From positions 688,001 through 752,000 of the forward strand of contig JAXDDX010000114.1 in assembly GCA_034670405.1 (NCBI GenBank): 64,000 bases of DNA, in the 5' to 3' direction. The notes under the pieces were generated by a model. The model saw nothing but the letters and a program-made list of their open reading frames with translations, searched no databases and had not been told where the DNA came from. This stretch comes from Hoplostethus atlanticus. Its lineage: Eukaryota > Chordata > Actinopteri > Trachichthyiformes > Trachichthyidae. Below are positions 3,444 to 33,000 of the stretch, one piece after another (the first letter of the stretch is position 1; each line of letters starts with the position of its first letter). A program made the translations under genes and the position numbers.

Positions 3444-3477
3444 GTTGTAATACAATTGTATAACAACAAACAAACAA

Positions 3478-4580: not shown

Positions 4581-4662
4581 ATAGTTAGGGGCATTGTCAT
4601 CCTGGAAGAGACCACTCCCATCAGGATAGAAATGTTTCATCATAGGATAAAGGTGATCACTA

Positions 4663-6574: not shown

Positions 6575-7170
6575 AAAGGAATACACCAAGTTTTGGGGGG
6601 ATTGGCTCGTTGGTCAATTTATTTGGCAAGTAATGAGAACAGCCACCAAAATCATCCATGTGTCCCCAGTAGATCATTGGCTCCAGTGCTGTATGCTATT
6701 GGGGTGGTCACACTGATCCATCAGAAAATTGACTGCATTTTTGACGGAAATATTTCCATCCATTGGGAAGTTTTGAAAAGTGAACGTGGTGTGTAACAGA
6801 AGTACAGTAAGAAGAAAACATGGATGCCAAGAGGGCCATGCTCGTAGCCGTGCTACTAGATTTGTTCTCATGAATAGGTTTATGGCATTAACTTGCTGAG
6901 ACCCCAGTACAGGAATTATCATTCCCTGGTCCATGGAGTGCATCTGGACAGTGGGAGGTTCAATACTTGCGCCTGACTTTGTTAAAAGTAATAAAATAAC
7001 AGTATAAAATCAACCTGGCAAACCTACAATCATTCCAACATTATGACAGTTTCTCAGTTTTTTCTCAATTTTATTATCCAAAAATCATCCATGAAACAAA
7101 CTATCTACCAAGGAGACATGGATGATTTTGGTGTCCATGTTCTTATCACTTAAACTTGATGTATTCCTTT
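6575..7170. mobile_element. MITE-like element with roughly 100-bp terminal inverted repeats
   Basis: AAAGGAATACACCAAGTTT at the left end is mirrored by the reverse complement AAAGGAATACATCAAGTTT at the right end (about 7152-7170). Further in, CACCAAAATCATCCATGTGT (left, about 6645) pairs with CACCAAAATCATCCATGTCT as read from the right arm (about 7115-7135). The roughly 400 bp between the arms has no transposase frame. The superfamily is unknown. Confidence 0.6.
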
Positions 7171-9033
7171 AAGGTCTTGCTGATGACTCATGTACATTGT
7201 AATGTGGATTTCACACCAAACATGATTAAATGGGCCTATATTTGCCTCCATGTCAAAATTTGACAATAACCAAACTTAACTTATATCTTAAGCTCACTGT
7301 CACAATACCTGTGGTGTTGATTGTACATACAGCCAAATGAAGACATAAACCATATGAGACACTAAGCCTGAAAGAAGATGGCTTTTATGGTCACTGAGTT
7401 GTCTTCAACTGGATGCTGTAGATCCAAAATATCCCTTCTCCACTTCCTCACTTTGCTTCAGATTAGGGAACAAGGGCATATGCAAGACAAAAAGACACAT
7501 GAGGGGGAATAAATGTCATAAAGAACAAACGATGGCACACACAAGGGGATAAAGACATAGGAGCCAATGAGGGAATAAATATCAACTGGAATAAGATTGG
7601 AGAGAATCAGGGCACAAGAAGAGACAGGGGATACAATAATAAAGAAAGGCATATAGGGAGTGGAGGTCCATGTCTCTCCTAGACTAGCAGTCCAATTTAC
7701 AATGGTAATGTTTTTCTACAAGTTCCAAAATCAACCTAGAGTTTGTTAATGAAGCTGAGCCTCATGGTGTTGAATTTAGAAGACCATTTTTTGCATTGCA
7801 ATATTCCAGACATGACTAACAAGCTAGTCTTCTGCTTTACCTACTGAAGAAATGAATGAAGGGAGGGCACTTTGGAGGGAATAAGGGCAAACATGAGGGA
7901 TCAAGGGAGCATTGTTCGGAAGGGATTAAGGCCACATAGGAGGGCTCAAGAATATATGAGGGAACAACAAAATATAGGATAACAAAAAATATATAGGCTA
8001 TAACAAAAGAGTCTCCATCATTCCAAACTGGATTACACCGGTATATTGGTTTGACAATATATTGAATCCGATTTTGGCTTTTTATCAAAAATCGGATGGT
8101 ATCCAGTCAGCTTCATCAACCTCCGATATGATGGATATGATGCAACTTGTTTGTTTTCACATTTATTATAATGAATCAATACTACGCTGGTTGTTTATGG
8201 GAAGCCCTTAACCTACTGTATATTGATTCTAATGTGACATTTTGATCAAATCATATTGATCACACAAGTATGCATGAATATGTCACCCTGCCAAAAATAA
8301 CATTGGGGAAACTAAAAAAAAACCCCACTGATAATAATAATAACTATATTTGTATAGCACTTTTGAATCAGTTACAGAGGATCCACCACCATAGGTAAAC
8401 AGCATCCTATTTTCACTCCCTGATGAACAAATCTGACAGTGTTGGATGGGTGTAAACTGGAAGTCTGGATACGTAAAGCAGCAGACACCTGACAGGGTAA
8501 GCGAGGACCATCACTGATTGAAAATAAACCCTACACACATTGGATCACATGGTTGATGGGCATAAACATCTCTGGTATGTATTACAGCATGTTTCTTAGC
8601 ACTGTCCATCAGAAGAGAAGATTGGTTAACAATGTACTCTTTTCACACCCCCTTTTACAGATTTGACAGCTGGATTGTAAACTCATTGTCTATCTTTGCG
8701 AGGAGGGGATGGCTACTGAGGTAACTGCTTACAACGATCCCACACTTTGAACCTCTGTGTAAAAAAATGTCCTCTCTTTTAGTCTCACTCTGTTCTGTCT
8801 TTGAAAGCCTGCTGTGGCCAGCGTCCTCGCATCCACTTGCCATTTAAAAGATCTGACGGCAGTGGATGGGAATAAACACCAATCCAATATGACTGGATGG
8901 GCGTAAATACAGCTTCATATCACTGTGAACTGAAAAGGTCGCTGTTGCAGAACAGATTGGTTAATAATGTGCTGTTTTTCCTTCGCTCTTTGACAGATCT
9001 GGTAGTGATGATTGTGCACAGCAAAGCTCCATG
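7171..9033. other. Intergenic DNA downstream of zmym4
   Basis: No coding exons recognised. About 8390-9000 contains diverged repeats of a unit including 'gattggttaacaatgt' and 'gatctgacagtgttggatgg'; copies begin near 8430, 8605 and 8850. This part may include the zmym4 3' untranslated region, whose end I could not place. Confidence 0.45.
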
Positions 9034-12005
9034 TCACTGTAAGCAGTCCTCATCTGTAGGAGCCGTGGATGTGGAGATCTGCTGCTGCTGGGCTGCTTTC
9101 AGTTCCGGGTGAATCTCTCTGACAGCCAGGATGCGTGTAAGCATGCTTTGTAAGGTGTTGCCTTCTAGTGGCTGGGAAGTAAACCAGCGGCGACTGTAGG
9201 GGTCAGAAAAGGACATTTTTTTAAAAAGTCTGACATTTTTTTCCATTTTTCAACATCCACTTCAAGTTGCACTAGGCAACTCCGCACATTGGCCTCAAAT
9301 AGCAGCAAAAGGTAACTGTTTTTTAATTTCAAAGAATACCAAGAGATCATAGAACGTGACGTCAATAAACTAAATGTTAGTCTTTGTCTGTTTAGCAGAC
9401 ACTTTTAAGCTTCAATTTGCCACCAGTGTCCATAACCAACACCAGAATTCAATGTTGGCAAATTGGGTGAATGAAGAAACCCACCAATTGACATAAATGT
9501 TATTCTAGTGGATGAACCACATGCTTACATACCTACATCAACATTAACCAAGTGACGCAGCTTTCTCAAATTAGATTTCTCAAATTATAGATAAAACAAT
9601 TACTGGGTAACGTGCGGCAATGCCAAACTATCTCAAGGGTTCCCGGTACCTTTGGCTTAAACGATTCTAAGGGAAACCCTGGCATTCATCCAGAAGTGAT
9701 ATTCTCAACAAAGACAAATCTGGATTTGGGATTTAACATTATTGAGTTCAAGGTTACAGATTCTGACCTGTTTGTGTGGACCGTCTGTTCAGGCTGCAGG
9801 TAAAACACATCGGGTCTCTTCTTCACCGTCTCTGGGCTAGAGGAGAAGGAAAGGAAAAGTGTTTCTTTACATCTTTATAGAATATTTTGGTTACATAAGG
9901 TAACTGGAATCTGTCTTTTTGCAAATCCCCTCACCATCTAGAGAGGTAGAACTCGTAGAGCCGGACAGGACAATGTAGAGGGTTGGTGATGTTTTCTGGC
10001 ATCTCCATGTCTCCCTCTTCCTCTTCCTGCTTCTTCTTGAGCCGCTCTAGAAACATCAGTAAGTACCCAGAGTCAATTCATCACCCGGATAGACCCGAAC
10101 ACATTTTGTTATTTAGGGACCTGCCTTGGCTGTTAGGGGAGATATCAAGTGGGAAGCTCCCATCAGAAACTACACTTTAAACTAGGGTTAAACCAATATG
10201 GGTTTTTGAAGGCTGATACTTGCATTTAAAGCTACCAATATATATATTCAATATCAATGAATTTGACCATTTTCATGCCCAAAAAGACGTGTATTCTCCA
10301 GCTGTGGTCATGGAGGACTTTGACTGTCTAATGTACAATTTTTCAGGTCAACTGATATATCGGTCTAATCCTACCACACCTACCTTTCTCTTCCCGTTCG
10401 GGCGGGTCAGTGCTGGTTCTCTGGTATCGGAGGTAGTGGGTCTTGCCAGTTCGGCTGCAGGGTTTGGAGCGCCGGGTGAAGTTGGCGAAGGAGAGGCGTT
10501 GTTGCTGAGCCAGCGTGGTGAAGCCAAAGGTCTTGGTGCAGAAAAAGAGCAGCGTGTTGAGCAGCACTATGGGGGAGTAGGCGCCTAGCTGCTTACACTC
10601 CCACAGGTAGGCCTCCTCAACACGGGAGGAAACAACGCCGCCTGGAGGAAGAACTATTTCAGGTGAGCAACCATGTATTCATCCGCTGCGCAGTGATTTT
10701 TAGCTGTAAACAGTCTGCTATTGCCAACCACATTCACTTCCTATGGAAACATGGAAAGTTGTCGCTGGTATTTCAGTATAATACAGCATCCATGGTAACT
10801 AACAAGCAAGTGCCAGGATGCAAAATAAAACACAACAGATAACTACAAGAAAAAAATCAGGGAAGAGAAATGATGAGATATATCTGATGAATAAAGTAGG
10901 GAGTCTGCAGGTATTGAAAAAATCTTAAAATGCCTTAAATCATACTAATCTAAACATGTAAACCGAAGGAATTAAAAGCTCTTGAATATAGTTAAAGATA
11001 ACATTTCAAGTCTTTGTTGGAGAAATTCGCATAGCTTGTCACTTGAAGAAACGTGAAGACACCCTGCTAAATGAATATCAGCGACCATACCGCTGGGTAG
11101 TAGTTTAGGCTTCCAATGTTGCAGCATCCCAGTGATCTCCGTGGCAAACGGACTGTACAGCTCATCGGTAAAGATGTTCTCTATGCGGCCCTTCTCAAAC
11201 AGGAACTGCCAAAGAGAGAGAGAGAGACAATAATAAAGGGGTGGGGGGAAAAATGCAAGACAAGAGGAGAGATAAGTCAAAACAAGAAAGATGGAAGTAG
11301 AAAATCGAAAACAGGAAGTAAAAGGTGATTCTGTGGTGCTATGTTCCAATTGTGTGTCCTTCTGTAGAAGATGGTAGAACATGCTGTCTAGTGTTTGTGT
11401 GTGTGTGTACCTGCTGTATCCCCAGACAGAGGTAGAAGATGCTGTCCGGTGTGTAAGCCTCTCTGTTTGGCCGTCGCACTTCTCTGATGAAGCGACACAG
11501 AGCAAAGCTCAGCTCTGCAGAGTCACACTGAAGGACATCCTCCTTAACAGCCACTGGATGGGAGGGAGGAAACCAGAGAATTACACTATTGAACAGAACA
11601 GAACAGAACAGAATAGAACCACTGGATAGGTTAGGAGGGGGAGACCAGGGAATACAACTAGAATAAAATAGAATAGAGCAGAGCCTCACAGTCCTGTGGT
11701 TGCTTGTTGCGTTGTTGGACCCAGCTCCTCCAGGCTTTCACCCCATACAGGTGGTTCAGTTTGGAGAGGGCCGGAGAAACCACCGCACTGCGGTCCAACA
11801 AGCCAGTACGTCTTCGACCCTAGATGGACATAGAACACACACACAAACACACACACACACTCACATTCATTATTCTAGCGGTGGTGATTTTACAGAAGAA
11901 GACTGCTGCTATCTCAGAGTGGTCATACCCGTTTCCGGCCAGGGAAACCTTCTCTGGGTCTCTTCACCCCTCGCTGTGGAACAGACGACTTCTGATCCAA
12001 CAGCT
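9034..12005 (-). other. zmym4: zmym4 exons 23-30: Crypton-derived DUF3504 domain and stop
   Basis: Exons: 11929-12005, 11690-11819, 11411-11553, 11091-11205, 10384-10641, 9935-10046, 9768-9836, 9034-9193. Signatures: LYGVKAWRSWVQQR, FIREVRRPNREAYTPDSIFY with LCLGIQQ, LLNTLLFFCTKTFGF, RLSFANFTRR, PDVFYLQPEQ and TLQSMLTRILAVREI. Published work (Kojima and Jurka) links this domain of ZMYM2/3/4 and QRICH1 to Crypton tyrosine recombinases. The last codons read APTDEDCLQ followed by TGA. Confidence 0.9.
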
Positions 12006-15000
12006 CTGTATCAACACACACAACACCTGTGAGTGAGTTAGACTGTTTGAATATGTGAGTGTTGTATTTAAAAAAAAAGCAACTTAGAAATTAAAGTGAA
12101 ACAAGGCAACAGTAAACATGTCATCCCCCACCAATGATGCAATCTGTCTTGTTTTGATCTGTAATTGTGATGCCCCCCTTGGGCTAATCAGTGTAATTTT
12201 TAAAATGTCACCAGGACCTCGCAGATTGGGACCGGCACCTATTTTGGTCAATCCAGAAACTCCTTCACACACAAAAAACATAAATCTAATAATAGTAATA
12301 ATAAATATTGTCTATTAACAACTCTTTTGTATAACCATGGCATCATATTGCATTACGCAATCAGAAAAAAATAAGTTGTAAGTTGCACTGTTTGAAAAAA
12401 TTGTTTTTAAACCAGTTGGCCAGTCAGAACCTAAGCAGGCCAGGGTGGTTTCGGAGAAACAGCCAACTGATGGCGGTGAAAACGTTAGCTATAAAAGCAC
12501 CCATCAAGTGCTGGAAGACAGAGAACATTTAAAGCTAAGAAACTATCACTACTAGTTGGCTTATTATGGACAAATCACATCGGGGCTGTGGCCCTGGTTC
12601 TTTAGGTCCAGAAAAAAAAGCCTGTTATTTTGGGCTGTTAAAGGTGCATTTAGATACATTTGTCCTGTATCTACATTATATAGGGTAAGTTTGGCTAACG
12701 TAAATGTGTGAGAGTTAAAATGTCAACAATGAGAAAATGTGGGTTAAGTTACCTGGGCGTGCTGCTACCAAAAATAAAGCTGCCCTCTACTGTCCCCATC
12801 ATGGTCTCATTTGTTTACGGTAATTAGACCAAGGTATCACAATTAATTTGAAAAAGATATATTGATGTTTAAAATGCTACAAATACCACATTTAACCACT
12901 TTATTTTCAAATAGACAACCATACATGCTTTAATTTATCAAAAATTTGGAGTTACTGGGTTTTTACAATGCCTAGTTTTTTTTGAAAGCTACTGTATCTC
13001 ACCAGACGGGAAGTCAGTCTCCAAGTCCATCATGGGAGAGGATGGGGGTTGATTCTCCGCACTGGTGCTAGGCGGGTCGCTTGTCCCCATGCTCCCCTCT
13101 GTCTGGGTGGTCATTACAGGTTCAGTTGACCCTGTGCTCCCCTCTGTCTGGGCGATAGTTTGGGGTTCAGTTGATTCCATGCTCTCCTCAGTCTGTGTGG
13201 TCAATAGGGGTTGATTTGACCCTGTGCTCCCCTGTGTCTGGGTGGTTATTAAGGGTTCAGTTGACCCCATGCTCCCCTCTGTCTTTGTGGCCGTTAGGGG
13301 TTCAGTTGACCCTGTGTTCCCCTGTGTCTTGGTAGCCATTAGAGGTTCAGTTAACCCCGTGCTCCACTCTGTCTTGGTGGCTGTTAGGGGTTCAGTTGCC
13401 CCCGTGCTCCCCTCTGTCTTGGTGGCCATTAGGGGTTCAGTTGACCCCGTACTCCCCTCTGTCTTGGTGGCCGTGAGGGGTTCCGTTGACACCGTGCACC
13501 ACTCTTTCTTGGTGTCGACTAGGGGTACCGTTGACCCCATGCTCCCCTCTGTCTTTGTGGCCGTTAGGGGTTCAGTTGCCCCTGGGCTCCCCTCTGTCTT
13601 GGTGACCATTAGGGGTGCAGTTGCCCCCATGCTCCCCTCTGTCTTGGTAGCCATGAGCGGTTCAGTTGACCCCGTGCTCCCCTCTGTCTTGGTAGCCATG
13701 AGCGGTTCAGTTGACCCCGTGCTCCCCTCTGTCTTGGTAGCCATGAGGGGTGCAGTTGACCCCGTGCTCCCCTCTGTTTTGGTGGCCATTAGGGGTGCAG
13801 TTGACTCCGTGCTCCCATCTGTCTTGGTAGCCATGAGGGGTGCAGTTGACCCCGTGCTCCCCTCTGTCTTGGTAGCCATGAGGGGTGCAGTTGACCCCAT
13901 GCTCCCCTCTGTCTTGGTAGCCATGAGGGGTGCAATTGACCCCATGCTCCCCTCTGTCTTGGTAGCCATGAGGGGTGCAGTTGACCCTATGCTCCCCTCT
14001 GTCTTGGTAGCCATGAGGGGTGCAATTGACCCCATGCTCCCCTCTGTCTTGGTAGCCATGAGGGGTGCAGTTGACCCCATGCTCCCCTCTGTCTTGGTAG
14101 CCATGAGGGGTGCAATTGACCCCATGCTCCCCTCTGTCTTGGTAGCCATGAGGGGTGCAGTTGACCCCATGCTCCCCTCTGTCTTGGTAGCCATGAGGGG
14201 TGCAGTTGACCCCATGCTCCCCTCTGTCTTGGTAGCCATGAGGGGTGCAATTGACCCCGTGCTCTCATCTTTACATACAGTAACTGGCAGGCCGGTTTGC
14301 ATTGCGCAGCCTTTTCTCCGAGTCTCCTCATCCTCCCAGCTTATAGGGGTCTCTGTCTCCATGTCGCCACTGTCCTGGTCTGTCACACACACACACACAC
14401 ACACAGATAAAATGAATGGGAACACTGTTTTGTGTTGCAACTGGTGCATCATGACCCCAAAGTTGCAAGATATCCAAAAAGGGACACAGACAAAGGAAAA
14501 CCTAGATAGAGGAAAAATACTTTCTCAAGTGAAATAGGTTGGAATATCTTGGATGGGGTGAAATTTGGGTGCTGATGCAGAACCAGAGGAGAACCAGCAG
14601 TCAAACCCTGAAATACGCACAAGGATAGGTAAAACATTCCAGGATTGTGTGTCGCTCTTGCAAATTTTCTTGATCTTGACCTAGGTCTAGGAGTCCCATC
14701 TTTTTCAAACCTCACCTGCATGGGAGATCAGCTTGTCCTTCCATATTACTTCTTCCCCCTCAGCGAAGTGCTCTGATTGGACAGCAGCATCTTTAACTTC
14801 CTTGTTCTGCGGCGGTATCACCATGGGTACTGGAACCTGGGAAAAATAGGATAGAAGAATAGAAGAATAGGTGGAATGTCATTTTAGCCTGGGAAATTCA
14901 TTTTCTTTGTCTGAGACTGTTCTACTGCACACTGTCGTAAATGCTGGAATTTATATATTTTCATACTTTTCATTCATATATTTCTACTTATTATGTTTTA

Positions 15001-18000
15001 GTGTTGTATTTGTTGGTTGTGCTGTTGTCGTGTTTGATACCACCCCATTTGCTTTATTCTTATCTATCTATTGTTGTATCCTCCTATCCTATTAAAATGT
15101 CATCAAATGTTATATAATGTAATATAATATAATTTAATGGGACGTACAGGCATGGGCATAGCCACCGGAACAGGCGTGTGCTGGGAGTACATGTTCATCG
15201 GCACTGGAATGAAGACTGGTACTGGGACTGGCACCATCACCATCTTCACCTTCTCCTCTCCTACCGAGGAGGTGAACGAGAGCAGAGACAGACCTGGAGG
15301 AGGGAGAGAGGGAGGGGAGAAGGATAGAAAGAACAAGGTAGAGCACAACAAGAGGATTAGGGTGGGAAGAGTGAATAAGTGAGGCAGGAGAAACAAGGGA
15401 GAAATGAGAGGGATGAGAAGAGAGAGGAAAAAATATTTTAAATTAACTCTGGATTTAAAAGATCATTAGTAGAAATACTCACCTTTCAGACAGAAATGCC
15501 ACAACAGTTGCCATACTACCCTTTCCCAAACTACCAAAACGCATGTTACCATTTTGTTATATCCACCTATCTTTATTATTGCCAAAACTATTGGCAAATT
15601 AGAAGGAAAGTATCCACTGGACCTAATACAGAGAATGACATCAAAGGGAAAATGGAGTATGGAAGTGATATGGAAGGTGTTTGTTCAAACTGAAAGAGAG
15701 CAGGAGGGAGTGAGACAATGTGTGTGTTGTGTTACGGAGGGAAAACGTCAAGCAGTTTGGTTCATTGGTCATAAGTGTTGATGCATATTTAAAAAGTTGT
15801 AAAAATACCCATTTGATATGCGTTTATGTTGAAGATGGACAATATATTCCTGATGAAAGAGTGAATGTTCACCTGGCTGCTGAACGTGGCTAGCCTAACA
15901 AATCTCAAATTGTGATTTTGTTAAATGATTTTGTTGAAATTAAATTAATTGTGATGCTTTGGTCTAATTACCATAAACAAATGAGACCATGGTGAAGACA
16001 ATTACCAGTGGTATTAAAAAATTAAGACCACATTTCCCATAAACCTGTTGCTTCAAGTTGTGAAGATGCTGTTGCCCTCCCACAGCGTAGCCTCGCCTTA
16101 TTTGCTTCTTTGTTCAAAGATTTTCTTTTTCACTTCACTGAAGAGGATAAACCTGTTGCAAGCGATTTTCCCCATCACCCTTTCATTCCCATCTTCCATT
16201 GCAAAAAAAAAGCTTTAACTCCATTGGCGCTAGAACAGTGCCCTATTCCTGTTTTGTGCCGTAAAGCAATCCAGCAGGTTTCACTTGTTTATGGTTGCAT
16301 ATACTTTTCCCAGTGAATTTTACCATTACCAAGACACATGATTTGATGTTACAATCCTTTGAGCCATAATGCAGAGTTAGCATTCACAACAAAAAAATGA
16401 TGCACTAACCCACAAATGGAGACTATAGAGGACATCAGGCTATGCCATCATAGATCTACGGGGCCATCACACAGGCAGCACCTTTCACTAGCCACCTAAT
16501 CTAAATGCTGTGGGAGTGAGTGTATGAGTGCAGGTATGTCACAGGAGTTATCAAGTGGTCACCTATCAGCACAGATGTTTTGTTGCTTTAGGACTACAAC
16601 ACCTCCAGAAGTATAGTGATCTGGTGAGTGATGCTGACCCTTCAGTAAACCATGTTTCCAAGACAGCCACAATGGGAGAATTCATGAGTGGGTATATGCT
16701 TCACCTACAAGGAAACTTGTGTATGTAAGCAGGTGTGTGTCCAGTCATCATGAACTTGAATGTTTCATTCACCTCTTTTTATGTGAACTGCAGGCTAGAG
16801 GTCAGGTCTTGCAGCTCTTGCCATGTTTATAATTACCTGTGCAAATTCTAGTAACTGTTCTGCTGTAGCTGATTTAACTCCTTATAGAACATTTTTGGCT
16901 AATCATGTAACTAATGTACCTACAGCAAGTTAACTTAACAATGATACACAATAAATAAGGATGGGATGTAAATCTGCACCTATTGAAAATTGCTTCAGTC
17001 ACTGGGAAGTTTTTCCACCCGTGGGCACCAGTGGTCCGAGCCAGTCTAGTGGTCAGCTTTGTGAGGACATATCCTTTGCTAGTCATATCCCATCTACAAT
17101 GTGTGGATAAACTCTTTTTATATTACCAAATAATGAGGATGAGACATCTAAACACCTTGTCCTGATTACTGTTGGATTGTACGATGCTACTCCAATGTTT
17201 GTTTACACAATTGAAGAAAAAGACAATTTACAAATTTAATTTATTTACATCTTTTTGCATTTGACAAATCAACATCAGCCTATCTTTTTCAGAAGGTGGT
17301 AACAGTATTCAGACCAGTAAAAAAAAAAAAAAGCATGAACAATTCCTCATACAGAAACCCAACATCAATTCATAACCCAACCCATATCAATTGTAATGGT
17401 TATATAACCTGGAATTAGAAAAAAAAAAGGAAAACTTTACAACCACTTCTGCAGATGAATAATAGAAAACCCTACATTTACAACATTGTGTTACAAATTG
17501 GGTCGTTAAAAAAAAACTTGTAATAAAAAAGTAAACTTGCATGACAACCTGTCATTTTTTCAGTAGTAAAATGTGAGCAGAAAATCCACTTGGGTAGTGA
17601 GGTACAGGTTATCGCCACGAGGAAAGAAATTCATTTTATTTTAAGTTTTTAACAAATTAAACTAACATTAAATTTATAATGTTATCTAAACATGAAACTT
17701 TATCAGTTTAACAGTTTAAGCAAATAAACTCAACATCAAAGTCTTCGATTAGTGCCTTGGTTGTATGGCTCAGACATTCAGAGGGAAGAGAAGTGATTGC
17801 AAACTATGGGCTCATTTAGACCTGGTAGATCCATCTCAAAGATCTGTCGGGGCTCTTTCTAGATAGGGCACCAAGCCAATAACGATTAGCTGGAAACTAA
17901 TCATTCTTAACAATTTATCAACAATTCCAGCTCAGTTTGCTAAGCCTCTGCATTGTAACTTCTTTCCTTGGATGCCTTCAACCAACCAAGCTCTCTTTGT

Positions 18001-21000
18001 CATCAGGTCGCAGCCACTTTTTCCACCATAAACCGCTCTCATTTCCTGCAAACACATCAAGCTTTCCCTTCCTGCTACTGTTGTTGGGATTCCAAATCCT
18101 TGTAATAACCTGGGGGAAATACTGACAGAGCTCAGGGTCTATTTGCTTAACCTCTACTTGGGCACTTTGGGCAAGAAAGGGCACTATGGCAAAGTTACCG
18201 TCGGGACGGTTAAACCTCAGCCCTTATCTTCTATACCTCACTGTTAGCTATTGCTAGCTATTGCCAAGATATCCGAATGTGCCTCAAGTGTCCGCTGCTG
18301 CCGCAAATAACCCCCCCCAGCACTATGGGCTCAATCTCTAATGCCACTTATAAGCCATCCTACGGGCCAAACGTCCATAACGGCAGCAGTGACTACACCA
18401 GGTCAGCAATCATTCGCCTCTTTCTCACAGCCAGGCTACCCATGGTGGCCAGAGTGCAACTTTTGGTTTCTCAAAGGGTTTTCCCAAATCTGTCTCAGGA
18501 TCAGCCCACTGACCCCGTCCTCCCAAACACCCACTGCTTAGAGGACATGCGCTTAGGGTCTTTGTTTTTGGCACAGTAGGACAAGATCACATCCTTCTAT
18601 GATGATCTTGCCTCCCAACCCAAGGACATCCACCTATTTATAGACATTTACAAAGCCCTCTATCAAGTTTGGATGCTTTTATTAGGGGATAGTGTTTCAC
18701 CTCAACGTGACGCATTTTATTAGTTTTTTTGGTTTGCTCCGTGCTCTGAGTTTATGACTCACCAGCCATCAGTTTTAATATTTTCAATTTACCATTGTAT
18801 ATAGGTTGTTTTTTTTCCCCATCCACTCCTTTCCTTGCAGACCTCAGTCAACATGCCTCTTCAATGGTTTCAGTCCCAGACTAATGGCATCCAGCACAAA
18901 TTGCAGGTCCAATCAAAGTGCTTGCCTCCAAATCAGAGGGACAAAGCAGACAAATGATGTGAATTTCAAAATGAAATACTTGGTTAACAAGCTAATACGA
19001 GTGAAAATAAAACAGAGTGATTCAGTAGGCTGCATTCAGGCAAGCAGCAAGGCACAAGTGACCTTGACACAAATCAACTTTTCAGCCTGGAACCTAAATT
19101 GAGGTCAATTTAATCACATCCTGAGCAACCCATTCCAGGTCCTGAAGCAAACTGTATAAATTCAATTAACCTCATTTGTCAATATACACACCATGCTCAA
19201 ATGCTGACAATGTTTGACTTAAAACCATTTAATGGAAAATTATAAAGTGATGAGTTCTAAAACATTTGGCAAGCTCTTGCTATGTTTGAAATCAGCTTCA
19301 GCCAAGTGTTTTCATGTATTTCAACACGTAGATCAATGAGGTCTGCTTACTTTTCATATTGTCTATTACAGTATAGTCTGTGCAGGTCAAAGGCAGCCTC
19401 TGCGGAAGCATCTCAACCATGACTATACCGTTTGTCTGTCCACCAGTCTGAAACGGTATAGTCATGGTTGAGATGCTTCCTCAGAGGCTGACTAGACCCT
19501 TCCATCTGTCAGAAACTGATCAGAAACACTGCATGTGTAGTTAAAAATGTGCACACATACTCCAGACAAATAAACAATCATATAGCGCTGAAAATTTCAT
19601 GTAACTGAGGAAATAACAGACAACCCATGCTAGACCATTCTGCAGTTCAAATTATTCCGTCCAAAACTTTAGTAACAGACCACAAAAGAAGGAGGTTGAG
19701 GTCAAAAGATGTGTGCGGTTGTGGACAGCAGCAACCCTGCTGTCTTTTTGCCTCCAGGCTGAGGGTAGACGTTAACGTCTCATGTCAGGAAATCAGGAGG
19801 CTGTGGAGAGAAAAACTCCTCTTCAAAAGTCAGTCACATTCAAATGAAAACGGCCTTAAATTTCCCTAAATTTTAAATGGAACATTGTTATGATTCTGAT
19901 TTCAATAACATTAAAATCATCGGTCAATCATGATCATGCACACACAAACACAAAACGGCAGTGCTGCAGATGTGCTACGAACAGTGCCTTTTTGATGTTG
20001 CTATTCTAAGTTCAGAGCAGCGCTGCACAATTAACTGTAGGTAATTGTATATCCTGATTTGACATTTCCACAATTAATAAATCATATAATTTGGCAATAT
20101 TTTCAATTCCCCTGAAAGTCCAGGTGCGGTATGTCAAGGGCATCCATTATTGTCTAATCAAAACATTGAACTTCAGCTCCGGTGGGAAAGAAACACACCA
20201 CCATACACCATATTTGGAAAATGTAGCAACAAGCTAAGTGGAAAAGAATGGATAAGCCCAACGTTAAATAGGAAAATCCATCCCAATTCTCCATAGTCTA
20301 AACGCAAAACAGTGTTTTAGCTCCTAAAAGTGGCCTTAGGGTTGCAGCTGCACCACGTTTTAACTACAGGCAAGAGACAAAATAATGGAAACACTTTATT
20401 GTACTACAAAGTTAGCTGTATGTGCATGTGGGGTGCCACATATATATGTCTTGCAACTCTGGGGACATGAGCTTCCTCTTGGGAGAGGCTTTTGTGACGC
20501 AGCCAGTCTGAGCACTACTCATCTATTATAAAACTGTCAGTGCACTGTGGCGGCGAGTGCACTGCTTTCGAAGGGAATGAGAGGACAATAATACAATACA
20601 ACAATATTTAGCAAAATAACCAGGATTATCATTTTTGCCATAATTGTGCAGCCCTAGTTCAGAGTATAAATGGAAAAATACTATTATTGTTATTATTTAT
20701 AAAGCTCACCTTGTGTTTCCAGTTCAGGAGCCGACCTGTAGATCAGTCTGGTGTGGTAAAGCTCAAAGCATGGGACAGGACAGAGGCTGGGCTCTCCTGG
20801 ACATGTCCTACAGTAATACAACGTCTGCCTCCTCTCTGTCCCATTCTCCTGCTCACAACCCTTCTGTGTTACACAGTTCTCCCCATCTGAGTTCATCCCC
20901 TTCATCTCCTCCTCTTCTTCCATTGTCTTCTCTTGCTCCTCCTCCACCTTTCCCCTCTTCCTCTCCCTCTCCTCCTCCTCCTCTACTCTCTTTCTCTTGT

Positions 21001-24000
21001 ATTTTGCGCAGACCTTGCAGTCAGAGTTGCCAGTCTCCCTCTTGCCAGGGAAATGGCGTCCGGTTAGGCGTGCCGGTATGTTGTCACATGGTTGGGTATC
21101 GCCCTGAGGTTTTGGTGATGGTGCTGGAGACGTGGATGCTTCAGAAGATCCTTCAGTAGACGGAGGGGCAGGCTGCGACGGGCTAGCTAGCTGAGCTGGG
21201 GCTATCGCTGAAACAGCTGGTCGTGAGCAATGAATGAATGAAAGGAAAGCTGTTGTGGAGGGTTGTGACAAAAATCTACAATAGATAGGCTGGACACTGC
21301 CTGGAGGAGCCTGGCTAGCTCCTGCAGTGCAACTAAACCTAGTAAGTATTTTGACAATATTGTTGTGGGAATGAGCATTGATTGATGCATGGACTAGGGC
21401 AGAGTTCCTCAAATCTGGGCCTCGGGGTCCAGAGCGCTGCTGGTTTTCTCTCCTACCAGGAAGTTAATTGCATTCACCTGGCATCCCAGGTCTTAACCAA
21501 TCCCTGATTAGACAGCTAGAATGGAAACTACCTGGCAGAATAGAAAACCAGCAGTACTCTGGGCACAGAGGTCCAGATTTGTGGACCACTGGACTAGGGT
21601 TACACAGATATGGAGTTTAGAACATCATATCGATATTCTTTGGACTGAAGTAGCTGATAATAATTCAGTACCTTTGATCTTTAAAAAAAAAAAATAATAA
21701 TTACAAGGATTCAATGTTTCCCCCAGAATTGTATCCTTGTCAGGATAGAAAAGCCTCTGAAACAGCATTAAGACCATCACGACACTAAAACTCCAAATAC
21801 AAATAAAATTGTTTGAGTTGGGTTAATATTTTCTAAAGGCAGGGTGAGGCACTTTTCTTTTCAGGTTTTAAAAACTGAAATCCCAAAGCTACTCAATACT
21901 GGTCGGGGGGAGAGCAAGGTGGAACATACATCATATCGGCAGTGGACGACATTGGCTGATATGTGATTTTTAATAAAAAGCCAATATATCAGTTTAACCC
22001 TATCAGAAAGTTGGTATGTTCAACACATCAAGCTCCTGATTCTCAGGCACTGAACCAATTCTTATTTCCATCACAGTCAAAGGTTTTGTGACAGCTGACA
22101 TGACTATCCCATTCAAATTCTGTGCTTTGCGATTGGGACCATTCATCAACCCCCTACATTTCACACAAACAAGGACTACTGTTCCACTGCTGCTCCTCCC
22201 CCGGGTGGAAATTTCTAAATTTTGTTCTCTTTACAGCTCACACGAATTACAAGTCAGGCTAACAGCAGTTTGGGAGGGACACATCTTGTCTTACAATATG
22301 CCTATTCAGTTCCACTGCTGAATGTGAGACAGAATAGACTGATGGAGATGGAGGACTTCTAACAAGTGCCCCAGCTTGTTCAAATGTTTTTGGTTGTTAC
22401 CTGCTGATTCAGAAGCCGGTGTGAGCAGCTGGCACAGGCTTTCCTGGTCCATAGTGAAGGGGCGACACAGAACTGACTTGTTCTTCATTTGACGTCGACG
22501 GGACACAGGCACACGCGTGGCATCGGTCTGGGTACTAGCCTGGAGATACATTCAAACATGATGTATAGTACTACAACAAAGAACAAATACACTCTTGAAT
22601 TTATATGATCTTAATCCAAAGCCTGGAGAAATACACATAACCATACGTATGTTGCAGTGGAGGGATTCTTATGACCCTAATCAGATAGTTAGTCTCATGC
22701 TTGGCTCACTAAAGCATGATGGTAAATTACTCCTTTGTCATGTGGGGTCCATAGTCTGTGAACAATGTTGGGTCCAGACTCACAGTTTAAGAAACCAGGC
22801 TGTAACTGCATCAGATTCAATTAAGCACACATCTTTGTTCATACACACACACCCACCCACCACTTACATTGCCTAGGTTCTTGCCATGGGTGTTGGAGGT
22901 TGGAAGTGCACCTACAAAAGAGGGACGGAATATTACAGCTAGCATTCAACCCCATTCAGAGAATTCCATATAATAATTTCTATATAGTCATTCATTTTAT
23001 TGATTTGTTTATTTATAGAATCTATACATTTTCTCTTTCTCTTTATTACAGCTATGGTTCGTATTTTTTAGTCTGGGCTAGTGTGTAGTCGCCCTGACCA
23101 ATGCATAGTAGATGAATATGAGCCTTTGTCGGCATATGGCATTTACATGGAATGATCAGTAACCAGTGTCATATACCTGTACACATGGAGATAGTCTAAC
23201 GCAGCTTTGAGGTTGTGGTCATTATGGTGTGTTATTTTGATGCTCCATGGATGACTCCAGGGAACCAGCATTTGCACTGGTTTGATCTTTAATCGTGGTG
23301 AATGCATATAAACAAACATGTAAAAAAACAGGCAAAAAAATCCAGTCATGCTGGAATGTTGCTTTAGCTTAACAAAACGTTGGTAACCAGACCCTTTGAC
23401 TGCTTTATTTGGGGTTTCCTCGTCCACATTACAACTGACAAATATGAATAAAGGTGTTATTGCTTTTGTTACTTTGTTAGCAAGACGGCTAATCTTGCTT
23501 AGATGGAAATCCTCTGTACCCCCTTCCCATGCTCTTTGGATTAAATCTATCCTAAATTGTATAAAGCTGGAAAAAATTAGACATACACTCAGAGGATCTT
23601 TAAACAAATTCTATACAATGTGGGCTCCCTTCTTCTCTTATGTCAAGAGGCTTCATTTCCCTGCAGTACCAGAGTGATGAATGTATATTTATCTTACATA
23701 TGTGTATTGTACATTATCTTTTTTATTTTTTATTGTTTTTGAGTATGACCTGTAGGATTGATATCAGAGCTGGTTGACCTATAAACCATTGTATTCATTT
23801 CTTTGCTTTGCGTTTGCTTTTCGTCTGTTTTGTTGCGTGTTATTTTTGGTATGTTGTTAGATGTTCTTATCGGATCATTTTCAAGTGCAATTCCTTTGTA
23901 AATGTTGACTATGCTGAAAATCCAATAAACAAAGTTTAAAAAAAACAAAAAACAAAAAAAAACGTTGGCTATTTAGCGCCGTTAGCAAGTAGTACCTGAA

Positions 24001-27000
24001 ATCATTTCCTTCATGCCATTGCAAATCATGAATTTGCACTGCTTTCCTTCCTGTACTTAGTGGTATTTTTCGTTAGCCTACACGCAAGCGGATACCAATT
24101 CAATTCAAATGCAACACAAGCTAATTTTTTGTTTCCCCTTGCAAACTAAAACAAATGGCAGAGAGAATACACACAGAGCGTGTGCGTTATTTATTCAGGT
24201 AACTCAGCTACTACCACATTGATTAAAACATTTCCTGTGGGGAATGCTGTATTATCCATATATACTAACATAAAACTTAGGCTCCTAGGCTCAGCATATG
24301 AACTAACCAGTCAGAGCAGTGTCTGCAGTCACATGGGGCTGAGTGGCAGAGCCGCTGGCCAGTGAGACAACATCAGCAATGACAGGGTTCATCTTTGAAG
24401 AGTGGTGGGGCTGAATTGGAGCTGGGGGGGGTGAGAAAGAAGGGATCAAAGACAACCCAATCCAGATTTTAAGTAGGGTGCCACCTGAGGCACAAAGATT
24501 ACCCCACGACTGGCTTCATTTAAATGGATTTAAAAACCGTTCACTCTCAAAGCGACTGAGCTCTTGACAATAAGAACATCAACAGAGGGATAGACGTCAA
24601 GGACGCTGCTCGGTGATTTGTTATAAAGCTCCACCGATTCAACCTCAGACGTGAAGAATGGAGGGGAGAGGAGCAGTAGGTCCGTGGCCAGGCTGGCAGG
24701 GATGATGTTTTTTCCAGTTGCGGAAATCAATGTATAAAAAAAAGTCAATGGAGAGCACTTTGGAGTCAGACACATCCAAGGCCTGACAGAAGACATCAGT
24801 TTACATCTTTAAATAGAGAATCATGACTAAACATCATAGTGATAATGGGACACTACTGTACTCTGCATTTACCATATGGTGTAAGCGGTGCCGAGCCTGT
24901 GCCGGCACCGTTGCTGCTGTTCCGTTGGTTGGTCTCAAAATGCAGGTGGCAGTATTGCAGCAGGCAGGGCAGGGTGCAGAAGTTACGGACTGAACCCAAA
25001 CACTGCAGCTTCTCAGTCATGTAGCCCTGCTTCTTGCAACTGTCACACCGAGCCATCTGGAGAGGATATGATAAGATCAAAAGAGAGGAGAGAACGGCAA
25101 GAGAGACACAATGGGAGAGGATAAACTAGAGATGCAGAACACAGTTTGTGTGTGTGCCAATGTAAGCGTTATGTATGGGTGTATGTGATGTGTGGCGTCC
25201 CACTCAAAGTGCATCTCAGTGGGACATACACACACTTTTATACTAGCTTTATTGTATAGGACTTTTTAAAAAACAAAAGTTTACAAAGTCCTTCACAATA
25301 ACGACAAATAAAAGAAGCAGAAACAAGATTACAAAAGCAAAGAAGAGGACAACAGCAAAATCAAAAAGATGTGTGAGGTGTGGGAGAGTGTACCTACTCC
25401 ATAGTACAACACAGTGCTTTGCAACATGCTTGCCTGTGTTTGTGTGTATTAATATAGTGTATCTCCCTACCCAATACAACCATGGTCAGAACTGTGCATT
25501 CACCACAGTACGTGTGCATCAGCAAATGTGTATCCTTGTTGACAGGGTTAACAGTATTGTGTAACGATACGTGGGTTGGGACCTGCGTTCCAACGCTATG
25601 GAATATTGGCACAAAATATCAGCTCTTGGCTATTTCTATCCAATCTCTAATCACACTCAGCTGCTGCATGGAAACACACCGCACGCACAAGCCTTTTTCC
25701 TACACCTGCTTGTGTGAGACAGACATGGGACATGCAACTACATACCCCATAGTAGAGTACAGTGTACTGGGACATGCAGTGGGGCCTGCAGAACTCCTCC
25801 ATCCTACCGCCATAGTGGCTGTGCAGCATCTTCTGCCCAATGCAGGCGCAGTAGCTGCAGGGACGCCATGGTTGATCCTTGTTACGAGACGTCAGGTCAT
25901 GTTTGAAGAGTAGCTTACAGCCTGGGGGAGAGACGAACAGGATGGTTGGGATTGGTATTTGTACTTTAAGATAGGATAAGCCTACCATTTCAGTCCACGT
26001 ACCCCATAAATTATTAAATTGGGGGGGTTTAAAATGTTATTATAGACTGTTCTCATGGATAATGTGTACAGTTGATACCACTGTACACATTAACTAGAAA
26101 ATTCAAAAATGTCTAGGTTTTATTGTTTGGATGCCTGAAATGCAATCCCGTTCAAATCAGACTTTTAACTTTCATTCGGATTTAGTAACAAGTAAAATCA
26201 AGGTAATGACCCATCGGGATACCTCAGGTCAGTGTGGCGATACTCACTCTCACTGCAGAACACCATGTCCTGTTGGTTGTAGGTGATGATGTCAAAGAGC
26301 ACTTTCTCCAGTTTACAGCACTCACACACAGCCAGGATATTCTTCTGGGTTTTATACTGCTCACAGCATGCCTTATTGCAGAACATGTATATACGACCCT
26401 GCAGGCAAAAATGATCATCGTCATAATCATTATCGTTGTTGTTATCATCAGGGTTGGCAATTAAGGTGAAGTGAGGATTGCAGTAAGGTTAGCTAGGTTT
26501 ACTCTGTGTGTGTTTGAGCTCTGCTTCTTACCTGGTAACTGAATAGCAGTGGCTTGGCACTGAACTGTTTGCTGCACTGATTGCAGGTCAGTTTGGAGGG
26601 ATCACTCGCCCCACCTTCCCCTGGCTTCGGGTGTTGCCCGGGAGGGACTCTAGCCTGGACTTGGCCTGGGACTGAGGGAGAGGACAGGTTGGGGTAGGGA
26701 GGCAGCAGGGAGGGCACTGAGGTATGGCTGGGATGGTGGCCAGGGGAGGGGACAGGAGTCGAGAACTCCTGAGAGATGGGAGGAACTGAGCTCGCACCGG
26801 CTGAGGGCACTGGTCTGGGGGTGTCACGGAGGGAGGGGTCCCTGAGAGAGGAGGTTCCATTGGTCAGTTCTGGTGGAGAGGTGTGTCCCATTTTCTGCAA
26901 GACACACAGGAAAAATAACAGCATGGTTTATCCAACAGAGGCCAAGGTTAAGTAAAACAGACAGATGCTCCATGCTCAGAGCTGAAAAGATCACGTGGTA

Positions 27001-30000
27001 CCACCGTGGCCCGGATTTAACTAAGTCAGAGTGCTTATAGGACCTGAAGATTGCATTCCTTCCTGGTTTGTTAATGTTGTTTTTCAGCACAAAAAAAAGT
27101 TCTAAAAAGGGCATACAGTCTGGTTTGTACTGCAGCTGGACTGCAGAGGCTGAAATACACCATCTAATAAGATGAATGTAAGAAACATAAATACATTCTG
27201 GTATATTCCTGTAAAGTGACCCATTTGTAAAACTTTTCCAAACTAGATTTTTCTGTTATAGGAATTTTGTACTTTCACATACATTTCCAACTCCATTTTG
27301 GTATACAAAGAGTGCTTTGCTTGTGCCATAAATGTATACCAAACTCATTTTGTAGCACGATAATATTTTTCATAGCCACTGTATATTTTTCAACTGGCTT
27401 TTTTGGTGAAAAAACCTGTTAGTGCTTTTACCCTATATACGGAGACACAGTCGTAGGAGCAGAAGTTACGAATTGTGCCGTCCACCATGGCCAGATGATA
27501 CTGAGGAACAGCATTAACTTTGCACAAGCAGCAGGGGAATGCAGTCCCTGCAGAGGAAGAACAGAAGGGTTAAATAAAATCTGTGTTTGTGTGTGGGCAT
27601 ATCTGTGTCGCATGCGCATGCATTACCCTGCCTACAAGTGTGTGAGCATGCATGCATGTGTATTAAATAGCTTTTTAAACCAGCTTTGGTTCTGGTGCAG
27701 GTTACAGTGCAAGTGATGTTATTTATACATACTATGGAAAAAGCACTAAGTCTCAATATTGGAGCTTGGAGGTGCTACGTGTAGCCTTTTAAATTATTAC
27801 CACATTCATTTTGAAACGTGTACAATTACTGTAAATGAAACCGTCACCAAGAATACTGGCAGCCTCTACACTATACTACACTTCACGTTGTTTGCTACTG
27901 GGTCGGATTTTGCAGGAAGTCTGGATTGCTTCACGGCACAACAGAGAAAGAGAGCACTTCCAGTTCTTCCACAGCTAACAAAGCTTTCAGGAGTTCTCAT
28001 AATTGAAGATGGTGGAACGAGTGAAAGGCCACTGCTAAAATCACTTCCAACATGTTGATTCTCTTCAGTAAAGCAAAAGAGAAACATCGTCGTTGTGACA
28101 GGATGTAACAGGGTTTATGGGAAATGTGGTCTTCATTTTGAGAAACACTAACCTAATACCACTAGCATGAGGTCGAGGCTACCCATCATCTTGACCATGG
28201 TTGCATTTCTTTATCGTAATTATTCCAAGGTATCAGAATTAATTTGACAACAATATATTGTTGTCAAATGAATATATATTGTTCTACACATAGCAACTTT
28301 AACGTGTTTTTGTTTTAGGTATACACTGGTATATGCTCATGTTATTAGGGTGTGTCCTACCAGTGAGCATGTGTCTGGGTGGTCGGCTCTGTTCCACGCA
28401 GACAGATGAACAGTAGAGCTGAACTTTGCCCTTCTGGTCCCGCTCCACGATAGTGGAGGAGACTGTAACCACCTTACGACAGTTGGCACACTCGGTCATC
28501 TTTGTGCAGGACTATAAGAGAAGCAGAGCAGTACAATAAATAATAAATAAGAATAGAGGATTATGCTTTGAAAATGTATGTGTTTATGTTTTGACCTGTC
28601 AGTAGGATTGCCACCTGATAGTAGCGACCAATTACTATGGCAAATACTGTATCTAACAACTACAATGCTCAGCCAAGTACTCTTTGGATGGACTGATAGG
28701 ACGTCACATTCTATAAAACCTCCATCTAATCCCAACATAAAAAGAAAAACATTTCAGGATGGCAAGCAGACTAGTCCTTTAATCTGTACTGTTCTCGTTC
28801 AACAGTTTTGTAGTCTGACCTAGATTTAAAATAATCTAACTGATGCATTTATACTGTATATGTGACCTATAGGTGGCACTACAGGCACTAACTACATCTA
28901 GGTTTAAATAAACAGTACAGTTTTCTTCAGCATATAAAAATGGTGAAGTATGCCAATAGTTAGGTCTCTGCTCCACAGTATCACATCTGTACATCTACTG
29001 AAGTCAAAGGCTGGAGGAAAATACAGAGGAATGAAAATCCATCTAAATCATCACTTTCTACAAAAGTATGACAGAAATATGAAGTTGAGGGTCACAAACA
29101 ACAAAATGATGTGAGGAATACATGAAAGATTTGGGGATGAAATGTTAATTTTTTTGTAACAAAAACTTCCTGCCCACGGGAAGGGACAATTGTAGAGGGG
29201 CGATCTAAATGACTGGCACAAACTTACAAAAACGCTGGTATACTGCTTTTAGATTGAAATGTAAAAGTGTCTCCTAAACCACACACCAACATGAGATCTT
29301 TTACCTCTCTTGTCACTTGGTGTCCTTTGGTATAAAGCAATTCCAGACCAGCTGGACTGGTAAACATGAGTGCACTGTGTGCATTACTGACAACACATTA
29401 CATGATTGCTGGGTATTGAAGTTGAAATTCAGAGCCACACATATGCAAAGTTGCCTAGTGCATGTTGGAAGTGGACCTCTGATCCAGAAACATTTTATCT
29501 GTCATAAAATCAATATTAAAACATCCCCCATTCCTTTTGAATGGACATTTTAACCCACAAGACAGTAAAAGACAAAACACACCTACACCCCTACCTGTTT
29601 GTAAGTACAGATGCAGGTAGGACTACAGAAGTTGAGCTGGGATCTGTCAATGGTGAGCGTCTGACAGGAGCCTGAGTTGCTATTACAGTAAAGACCACAG
29701 CCTTCACAGCAGTTCATGGCTAGCTGCCGCGTCTTACGCCACGTTAGGAAACAACCATCGCTGCAGAGCCTGTGCAGACGACCCTGATGGGTGACCTCAT
29801 GCTCAATCTGATGGGACAGACAGAAATATTTTAATTTTTTAATTTTAGCCATTCGGCAACACGTTTATTCAGACCAATTTACAATGAGTGCAACAGCAGA
29901 ATGAGCTTCCAGATCACCAAAAAATATAAGCAATCAAGGAGTGTAAATGTAAGAGCCACAGTGGAAATATTCCTGCAACCACACAGGAGTGAGTACGAGG

Positions 30001-33000
30001 AAAACAAAAAACAAAAATTGCTACGGAGAGAGAAGGAATTTTAGTTGTAGACAGAGTAGTAGTAGAGTAGTAGTGGGAAATCATGTATAATTGCAGGGTA
30101 TTGGCAAGAACCTCACAATACCAGTCGATTTCCATGGCTTAATGTCACCACTGTACATGTTGATATAGATCACATCATATGACTGAATGAGAATTGACAG
30201 AACATCACCACTGTATTCAGTTGTATTGATTTAACTCTACAGTCATTACTGTAATGGCTCCATTTCTGTCTCTTACCCTGTTGGTGACTCTGCAGACACC
30301 GCAGAAGGGTTTTTCGGGCTGTTTCTCAACCTGCTTCTCAGGCTGCTTCTCCGGCTTCTTCTCCAGCCGTTTCTCGGACCGTTTCTCCGGTCGCTTTTCG
30401 GGTTGCTTGTCGGCTTGTTTCTTCTTGTGTCTGAAGACAGACAGACAGAACTGGCCACAGAAGTGCATGTAGGTACTGGCGTCTAGAGGAATCATGATCA
30501 TATCCTTAGGCTGAGTGATCTCCCTGCACAGAGAATAACACAAAGAGCAAAAAAACACAGTCGCAAAAACCCAAAACAAAGAAAACAGGAATCTCTATTA
30601 CAAATACATGTGTTACAAGAAGCCGGTTCATTGTTATTATTACTTTCAAACGGTTTCGCAATTTCCTGTGACATGGTACATGATAGAGATATGCCATTTG
30701 ACAAAATAATAGATATAGGTGGTGGCTTGTTACTCAAGAAAGGTGAGCCTGGTAGGCCAGATGGTGGCACTGAAAGAACAATAATCACAGTCTGACAGAT
30801 TATAAGGTATGAAGTTACTTCTGAGTGACAGTTCAACCCTGGAATTGTCTTCACCTGACTAATTGAAGCCCAAACGAGCCAATCAACTTTTCTGGGCTTT
30901 CGTGCATGCGTAAATGTAAGGGCCCAGGAAAGGCGTTAAACTGCTAATATCTAAAACACAATCCAGATAAAGCAGCACGTTAATGCCAGGGGGAAAGGGG
31001 GCCACAGAGACGTACTTGTTGCATTGGAAGCAGAATCGCGCCTTGCAGGCTGGAGGCAGATGACCGGTCAGACAGACTGTCGAACAGAAGAGCTGTGTCG
31101 AACCTTTTCTCTGGAACGCCGTCTGGCCTTTCAGCAGAACCTAGATCCATTTACACGTTCACAGATTGCATGTTTAATTGATTGGTTGAATTCATATATC
31201 TTGAAACATGTATGTTAAAGAATCTAATATGTTAGTTATTGTGAGTTATGATGAAAGAACAACAAACAAAAAGTACAAATTGGAGACAAAAGTTCTGCAA
31301 GACAAAGCATTGAAAAAAGCAATGTTCAAATCAGAGCAAGGAATCACCCATCATGATCAGAGTGTCCGCAGCCGTCATAACGCTCATCTGGTGTTGGTTG
31401 TGAGGCTCTTGGGGTGTAGCATTTCTTCTCAGACATGGGTGGTGGTGAGCAGGATGAGGGTCGGCCAACTCTGGGTCGAGGCTTGTTGACTGTCAAACTG
31501 TGGGCAACTGCCCGGTAGAACCTTTTTAGAGGCTTTGGTTCCTCATTCAGTAGGCCACAGTCCCTCTTGTACACCAGCCAGGAGTTTGAGATGGACAGGT
31601 CAAGGATGTATCCAAAGAGGGGGGTAGTACCATCGCCATGACTTGGCTGGGGTCTTGTGCAAGTGTACCAGCATGTCAGAAAGATCAAAGGCAGGGATGA
31701 GTGAGGGGCATGGGATGTTTATCTTAGCGTGGTCCTCCTTGCTCCAACGTTTCAGTTGAAAGAGGCTCGACCCCACAGGCATTACTCAGGAGGTTCACAC
31801 ACTTGTTGTCAGACCATTTCACTGCGATCACCCCGTCAGCAGAACTGTAATCAAAAGCTCCACGTCCTTTCTTCATCAGCTGTTTATCTGTCATCAAAGG
31901 AGCTGCACCAGTGCGCTTTGGCCAGACAGTGCCAATGCACTTAATACCCAAGTTTGAGTGTAGGTTCTGTATCAAGTGGAAACTGGTGAAGTAGTTGTCA
32001 CAGAAGACAAGATTCCACTTATCAGGAGTGATTTTTTTATGATAACTTTCTGAAAGGATGCCACCTGAAAAGGACTGGTCATTAAAAACACAGTGCCACC
32101 TGGTGTTTCTTTTGTGCATTACATACTTCAACCGAGTGGTAGAAATGGCTCAATCAGGTTGAGTTAAGTACAACAAATTCTTCAACAAGATATTGTGAGT
32201 CAAAATGTGCTCTACCGACTTTCTACCTTTATACAACTGCTCTACTTTCCCAGTCAAATTTTTTTTTTTTTTAAATACTGAATACTAAAAAAGAGTCTCC
32301 TTAAAAAAAAAAAAAAAAAACAAGCACAGAACTACAACAGTACCTTGGAGCAGCCACTGCAGCGGACACTGCCAGGGACAGGGGGCTGAGGTGGGAGTGA
32401 GAGCCCTGGAGCCAGAGATTGAAGTGTGGCTGGAAATGAAGGTCTGAAAGGGAGGGGAGCCATAGCAGCCTGCAGGACAGCACCTCTACCTGGGATGAAG
32501 ATGGCCGCTGGCTGGGGAGCCGGGCCTGGAGCTGGCAATTGAGTGTGTACGATAAGAGCTAATGAAGGTGAGATAGTATGTTCATGGATCACTGTAATAC
32601 ATGACATTTATGGAAAGTGATTGGTAAACATCTGTGTGGTTTGAAGAATCTTCAGAAAGTAACTTTGTTTTGCATTCCTAGCAAGTTTGTCTTGCATTCC
32701 TAGCACATCCATTTCCTATCAAAATGGGAATCAGAATAGACACTTGATAAATAAGCAGTAGTTGATTCATATGGTTCTACTAGACATCCTCCATAACCAC
32801 ACTTCCGATGGTTGGGATAGATTACACATCCGGTAGACCCCAGATGGAGAATGGTTGCTTAAACGTTTGGCTGCTGATGCTGTCCGGTGGTTTTATTTCC
32901 CAAGTTGTGATACAGAGATTAACTCTATGGCTTGAGTGTGGTGACACCACACAGATGGCTTCGGCAGGCAGTAAAAGTAAGAAAAGGGGGAGTACTCTTA

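Follow-up and report, generated by a model that had tools for sequence, protein, structure and literature searches.

A candidate exon of zmym4 encoding a piggyBac-type zinc finger in Hoplostethus atlanticus

The window analysed here, a stretch of 64,000 nucleotides (C114:688001-752000) within the 633-Mb genome of Hoplostethus atlanticus, carries on its minus strand a gene of the ZMYM family, zmym4, with a candidate exon 19 that probably encodes the linker and zinc finger of a piggyBac-superfamily transposase (Table 1; positions without a contig prefix are those of the window). Both MYM fingers and a QRICH1/DUF3504 C-terminus were matched in the gene, which places it among the ZMYM genes. Among eight candidate MYM open reading frames (ORFs) scanned, 30217-30594 included, zf-FCS was matched at E≤0.01 in five (three over the cut-off) and was not matched at this level in the other three, and the TRASH_ZMYM4 match reached 26.8 bits, just below its cut-off of 27. 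The TRASH_ZMYM4 match would point to ZMYM4 rather than ZMYM2/3 as the host gene; the name zmym4, which comes partly from an initial annotation of this DNA, is presumably correct. DUF3504 of ZMYM2/3/4 is described as Crypton-derived (PMC3212892), and the Crypton-derived C-terminus proposed in that annotation is present as a DUF3504 profile match.

The exon had been placed at 20710-21216, with a length of 507 nucleotides, phase 1 at either end, and the motifs RLTGRHFP, CKVC, YYCRTC, and LCPVPCFELYHT encoded in that order, and we found all of this to be so. The reading frame is continuous from 22401 through exon 19 to 15293 whether the exon is included or skipped, so that exon 19 is a symmetric cassette. 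The open frame around it extends over 256 codons (20693-21463); in simulations with a first-order Markov model, 168 codons remained open in 2 of 5000 sequences matching exon 19 in composition and in 0 of 5000 matching intron 18. Splice sites were scored with a matrix of general splice-site frequencies against 3851 GT and 4115 AG sites of the strand. The exon 19 donor (AAG/GTGAGC) reached the 99.7th percentile; its acceptor reached the 87th, the same as the exon 18 acceptor, and a second in-frame acceptor 9 nucleotides downstream (21207) the 84th. The acceptor of exon 20 (15293) was at the 100.0th percentile (rounded) of the same AG sites; position 15143, tried as the 3' end of exon 20, scored poorly. 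A regular expression for H..CxxC..CxxC..C..C..H matched 2 of 3539 ORFs (≥30 codons, C114:598001-772000), namely exon 19 and its copy in a partial tandem duplicate.

Table 1. Features of zmym4 in the window around candidate exon 19.
Feature	Position in window	Strand	Remarks
Candidate zmym4 exon 19 (linker + piggyBac-type zinc finger)	20710..21216	minus	507 nucleotides, phase 1/1; PF13842 E=3.8e-6
Pro/Ser/Thr-rich stretch before the finger	21083..21214	minus	from translation; weak, low complexity
Zinc finger, upstream His (GRHFP) to last His (YHT)	20753..21055	minus	H-x11-C-x2-C-x65-C-x2-C-x6-C-x3-C-x4-H
Charged loop between the two CxxC pairs	20813..21007	minus	65 residues, pI 4.9; of unequal length in the two copies
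zmym4 exon 18 (ASTQTDATRVPVSRRRQMKNKSVLCRPF...), upstream partner of exon 19	22401..22539	minus	
zmym4 exon 20 (VPVPVPVFIPVPMNMYSQ...), downstream partner of exon 19	15148..15293	minus	3' end by eye at GTACGT donor, unscored
QRICH1 + Crypton-derived DUF3504 ORFs of zmym4	10343..11737	minus	PF12012 E=3.2e-27; PF25561 E=1.8e-10 and 4.1e-22
MYM-finger exons (zf-FCS, TRASH_ZMYM4), upstream of exon 18	24856..31140	minus	

A zinc finger of the piggyBac type

The sole Pfam family over its cut-off in exon 19 was zf-Tnp_2 (PF13842; 27.8 bits, cut-off 24), which represents the C-terminal finger of piggyBac transposases. When the long loop between the CxxC pairs was removed from the finger, this loop-less query scored 30.7 bits, compared with 29.4 for L014, a genuine piggyBac relic of the same genome. 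The genome contains at least 118 piggyBac DDE matches, some of them long and open, from which 30 loci were excised; a finger expression matched in 21 of these. A seven-finger profile was built from L014 and six of the 30 loci, after dropping L033 and L048 (not finger-like), L035, L036, L037, and L046 (near-copies of L034), and nine with a T. ni-like Cys/His arrangement (L041-L044, L047, L049, L051, L052, and L057). This profile ranked the tandem copy first and exon 19 second among the 3539 ORFs, and gave the loop-less query 22.9 bits, against a best of 15.8 among 20,000 shuffles (19,980 reported). Profile A4, composed of loop-less exon 19 and the seven in-genome fingers, had the piggyBat transposase (9c0f; E=5.4e-8) as its top PDB match, and 17 of 46 residues (37%) are identical between loop-less exon 19 and the piggyBat finger. 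The similarity to piggyBac cysteine-rich domains (CRDs) was thus found by Pfam, by the in-genome piggyBac profile, and by the solved piggyBat.

The label PGBD4-like for this finger, given in the initial annotation, is tentative. Because HFP also occurs at the same His in loci L034 and L039, which we take to be PGBD2/3-like, RLTGRHFP alone is not diagnostic. Exon 19 and the piggyBat CRD have in common CxxC, T-x-Y-x-C-x2-C, CFE-x-YH, and the upstream His, while the second CxxC pair is followed by LC in exon 19 and by LH in piggyBat; exon 19 further differs in having no transposase core, a loop of 65 instead of 12 residues, and an acidic instead of a basic finger. The CRDs of PGBD2/3/4 are said to share the piggyBat CRD fold (PMC11707139).

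The eight ligands of exon 19 (residues 10, 22, 25, 91, 94, 101, 105, and 110 of finger peptide P0001) are ordered His, CxxC, CxxC, C, C, His as in the CRD of Paramecium PiggyMac (Pgm), where the reported zinc ligands are His701, Cys723, Cys726, and His749, and Cys712, Cys715, Cys737, and Cys745 (PMC8086355). The two share the eight ligand types in the same order and an acidic isoelectric point (pI), whereas Pgm is a catalytic transposase with 7 residues between its CxxC pairs, not 65. The C-x2-C-x6-C spacing of exon 19 also differs from the x4 spacing of all seven in-genome fingers. We infer that the exon 19 finger folds around two zincs, as His-Cys2-His and Cys4; the fold stays at this level because AlphaFold2 with two sequences gave no usable model. 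A nine-row alignment intended for a second structure model was discarded, as it paired the short fingers with an incorrect portion of the loop.

The Pro/Ser/Thr-rich stretch before the finger resembles the core-CRD linker of piggyBac transposases, and similar linkers occur in L034 and L038, although these likenesses are weak and of low complexity. Tblastn searches with the longest frames of the 30 piggyBac loci detected no DDE core beside exon 19, the only match being a relic at 31.5-32.0 kb; the finger thus appears not to be joined to a DDE core, as it would be in a functional piggyBac transposase. In viral contigs, 14 stretches matched a pattern with the loop-less query, and 0 of the 14 were confirmed as relatives.

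Taken together, we consider it probable that zmym4 captured, as a phase 1-1 exon, the linker and CRD of a piggyBac-superfamily transposase, and that this CRD belongs to the Pgm/piggyBat cross-brace type. The captured piece would then have entered, as a symmetric exon, a gene whose C-terminus came from a Crypton recombinase. The candidate exon would be spliced into zmym4 mRNA, perhaps optionally, because skipping it keeps the frame.

The tandem copy and the competing readings

Against the whole genome (E≤0.001), full exon 19 matched two places, itself and a copy at C114:655473-655955, which lies 53 kb away in a partial tandem duplicate. The partial zmym4 exon copies of this duplicate occupy C114:654590-668912, about 33-19 kb left of the window. 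One MYM exon of the duplicate is 53-56% identical in protein. Around exons 18-19, DNA identity reaches 87-99% in the blocks that align, introns included, with parts of the introns unaligned; these blocks would reflect gene conversion or a recent duplication. All eight ligands are the same in exon 19 and the copy. No Crypton C-terminus of the tandem copy was found as far as 598001, and neither exon 20 nor a QRICH1 or DUF3504 relative was found in C114:598001-688000.

With E up to 10, the loop-less finger matched in the genome, beyond exon 19 and its copy, only C34 (E 1.8) and the L014 relic on C108 (E 0.4); as the first filter of this search let just four candidates through, distant relatives can be missed. 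The Pfam finger search of the genome gave three places and is no census, because most fingers of the excised piggyBac loci escaped it. As many other piggyBacs are present without a close relative of the finger, the donor subfamily appears gone or strongly diverged in this genome, and the capture looks old, judging from these searches. Of the earlier interpretation, the piggyBac homology and the Crypton C-terminus were borne out, while the statement that exon 19 is not a fresh insertion gained indirect support, in that the search with four passing candidates found no close donor family.

Several observations weigh against capture of a piggyBac finger. The seven-finger profile gave weak E-values, 0.023 for the tandem copy and 0.028 for exon 19, both above the HMMER inclusion threshold. 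Profile A4 includes exon 19, so its match in the PDB speaks for the family and not for the exon alone; as single PDB queries, neither exon 19 nor its loop-less form matched a piggyBac chain, and the best match of the latter, at E 0.2, was a UBR box. Two of the seven in-genome fingers have no clear upstream His, and AlphaFold2 with the 124-residue piece and the tandem copy reached a predicted local distance difference test score (pLDDT) of 57. The exon 19 acceptor is only fair. Between the copies, the proportions of non-synonymous (pN) and synonymous (pS) differences were 0.038 and 0.060 over 155 gap-free codons (codons with gaps were excluded, and the repetitive loop is aligned with uncertainty at the DNA level), with no sign of purifying selection. 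Of 15 codons that differ, nine belong to the loop, while the remainder of the finger (74 codons) has 1 synonymous and 3 non-synonymous differences; because the copies are too recent, this comparison neither shows nor excludes selection. Finally, the finger may already have differed from other piggyBacs before zmym4 captured it.

In another reading, exon 19 is a genuine piggyBac remnant lying unspliced in a zmym4 intron, an inert relic whose open frame reflects either youth or chance. PiggyBacs did land here: a second, frameshifted piggyBac DDE relic (31344-32149, minus; PF13843 E=1.2e-10) lies on the same strand in another intron of zmym4, and it ends before the finger. The at least 118 DDE matches, the fair acceptor, and the lack of a sign of selection between the copies are also compatible with such a relic, but no DDE core was found around exon 19 with the 30 piggyBac loci, the genome searches revealed no close family member, unlike what a young insertion would leave, and the frame, phases, splice sites, and eight ligands are unlikely to occur together in a relic. 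We therefore regard this reading as unlikely. The second relic, presumably PGBD2/3-like, was also considered as the source of exon 19 and rejected, since it stops short of the finger and matches L039 best (49% over 83 residues).

Exon 19 might instead serve as an alternative last exon, which is compatible with capture and which we give a small chance. Transcripts left unspliced at 20709 would yield a ZMYM4 that ends in the finger after GELYK, without the Crypton domain, and the tandem copy would be fixed in this finger-ending form. The frame indeed ends as GELYK* in exon 19 and GELSK* in the copy, an AATAAA lies ~310 nucleotides downstream of the donor (by eye), and, as noted, the copy has no detected exon 20, QRICH1, or DUF3504 relative. 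However, the exon 19 donor, within the best 0.3% of GT sites, is identical in the tandem copy, and AATAAA is common by chance in A+T-rich DNA.

The charged loop and its possible role

The loop between the CxxC pairs, with its 65 residues, is far outside the range of the seven in-genome fingers (7-13 residues; L030, one of the seven, is without a clean first CxxC) and is 53 residues longer than the loop of piggyBat, in agreement with the insertion of roughly 50 residues reported in the initial annotation. The short loop of piggyBac CRDs (7-13 residues) is thus not found in exon 19, and the 65-residue loop is treated as a derived form because the rest of the finger matches the piggyBac CRD. An origin of the E/K-rich stretch in the donor transposon was judged unlikely, the stretch being absent from all seven in-genome fingers. 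The loop carries two extra cysteines (residues 70 and 76 of P0001).

In piggyBat, R543 and E545 were reported to contact bases from a loop entering the DNA major groove (PMC11707139). An offset of 6 between chain and protein numbering fits 6 of 6 residues checked (S494, G495, R497, T502, R543, and E545), and R543 and E545 fall between the CxxC pairs 534/537 and 550/553, the site of the exon 19 insertion. The exon 19 finger has a pI of 5.2 and a net charge of -5, against 10.0 and +10 in piggyBat. New in this analysis is that the ~53-residue insertion sits in the DNA-contact loop of piggyBat, and that the finger is acidic where that of piggyBat is basic.

The acidic CRD of Pgm (pI 5.48) was reported to show no DNA binding and weak histone H3 binding (PMC8086355). 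Because of this precedent, the insertion in the DNA-contact loop, and the acidic finger, we favor protein or histone contact over DNA reading, and the exon 19 finger is predicted to be a protein- or histone-binding module. In the mechanism that we propose, the insertion in the loop that piggyBat puts into the major groove would make the finger acidic, and the finger would probably have lost its old target-DNA reading to become a protein-interaction module within a chromatin regulator, possibly touching histone H3 tails like the Pgm CRD. That a Crypton-based chromatin regulator domesticated the finger of a second transposon, and that growth of a charged loop turned a reader of transposon ends into a reader of histones or proteins, is a tentative proposal, possible but not one that we would hold as the likelier outcome.

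It is doubtful that DNA binding persists in the finger and supplies ZMYM4 with sequence-specific targeting. The piggyBat CRD binds the transposon end, and PGBD4 is suggested to retain DNA binding (PMC11707139), but in exon 19 the DNA-contacting loop carries the insertion and the net charge is reversed. Very improbable is an origin by chance or from another treble-clef family (e.g., UBR box, C1, or uS14-like): weak Pfam matches to zf-UBR (0.021) and C1_2 (0.43), a NAM-associated match (4e-4, below cut-off and over the low-complexity part), UBR boxes in the single-query PDB search, and uS14 proteins from E 0.005 with profile A4 are on its side, but zf-Tnp_2 alone is over its cut-off, the C-terminal LC-x3-CF-x3-H and the upstream His fit the piggyBac type, and the E-value of piggyBat is lower than that of the best uS14 by about five orders of magnitude.

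With a piggyBac finger and a Crypton-derived C-terminus, a single gene model contains pieces of two unrelated DNA transposons. Fusions of host proteins with parts of transposases are already known. CSB-PGBD3 fuses a whole transposase, and zmym4 exon 19 differs from it in holding only the linker and finger. They are alike in that a piggyBac-derived part lies inside a host gene with chromatin function, from which it is expressed in CSB-PGBD3 (PMC2268245). For human and Xenopus Zmym4, nine MYM fingers, a DNA-binding domain, and DUF3504 are named in text and legend passages of PMC10579616, in which no such finger is named; the same paper mentions that ZMYM4 has an alternative transcript joined to a rolling-circle transposon. 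No piggyBac part in ZMYM4 was described among the literature matches listed, as judged from titles and the start of abstracts in a set with subscription journals mostly outside its scope. ZMYM2, a paralogue of ZMYM4, was reported to control human transposable elements (PMC10629813), so a transposon-derived finger in a ZMYM gene may bear on host recruitment of transposon parts to chromatin control. An isolated, coreless piggyBac CRD captured into a transposon-derived gene would, if true, be an unusual case of repeated recruitment, and exon 19 offers a clear test of whether an insertion in a DNA-contacting loop turns a DNA reader into a protein reader.

Further observations in the window and the genome

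Two adjoining ZMYM-like DUF3504 genes lie 23 kb apart at C6:10432429 and C6:10455182, with 63-64% identity to the zmym4 domain of the window over 72-73 residues. Relatives of exons 18-20 were sought at such paralogous DUF3504 loci, and none was convincing (one exon-18 match, E 0.2), the loci of ~3 kb being probably too short. Long open piggyBac-derived frames with similar fingers were found at L058 (C170:378370-379455) and L040 (C2:6866452-6867597). L058 reads YLASSLTSVPL where L040 reads FMDSFFTSVPL; as the changed residue is presumably catalytic, L058 is perhaps a domesticated gene.

In the zmym4 region of the window, a 511-residue frame (12989-14524, minus) contains a 15-residue tandem repeat, variants of PLMATKTEGSMGSTA, and the opposite strand is also open there (440 residues, 13215-14537). 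A BED-type zinc finger frame (37250-37690, minus; zf-BED E=3.3e-7) is probably the N-terminus of a transposon that we take to be hAT-like.

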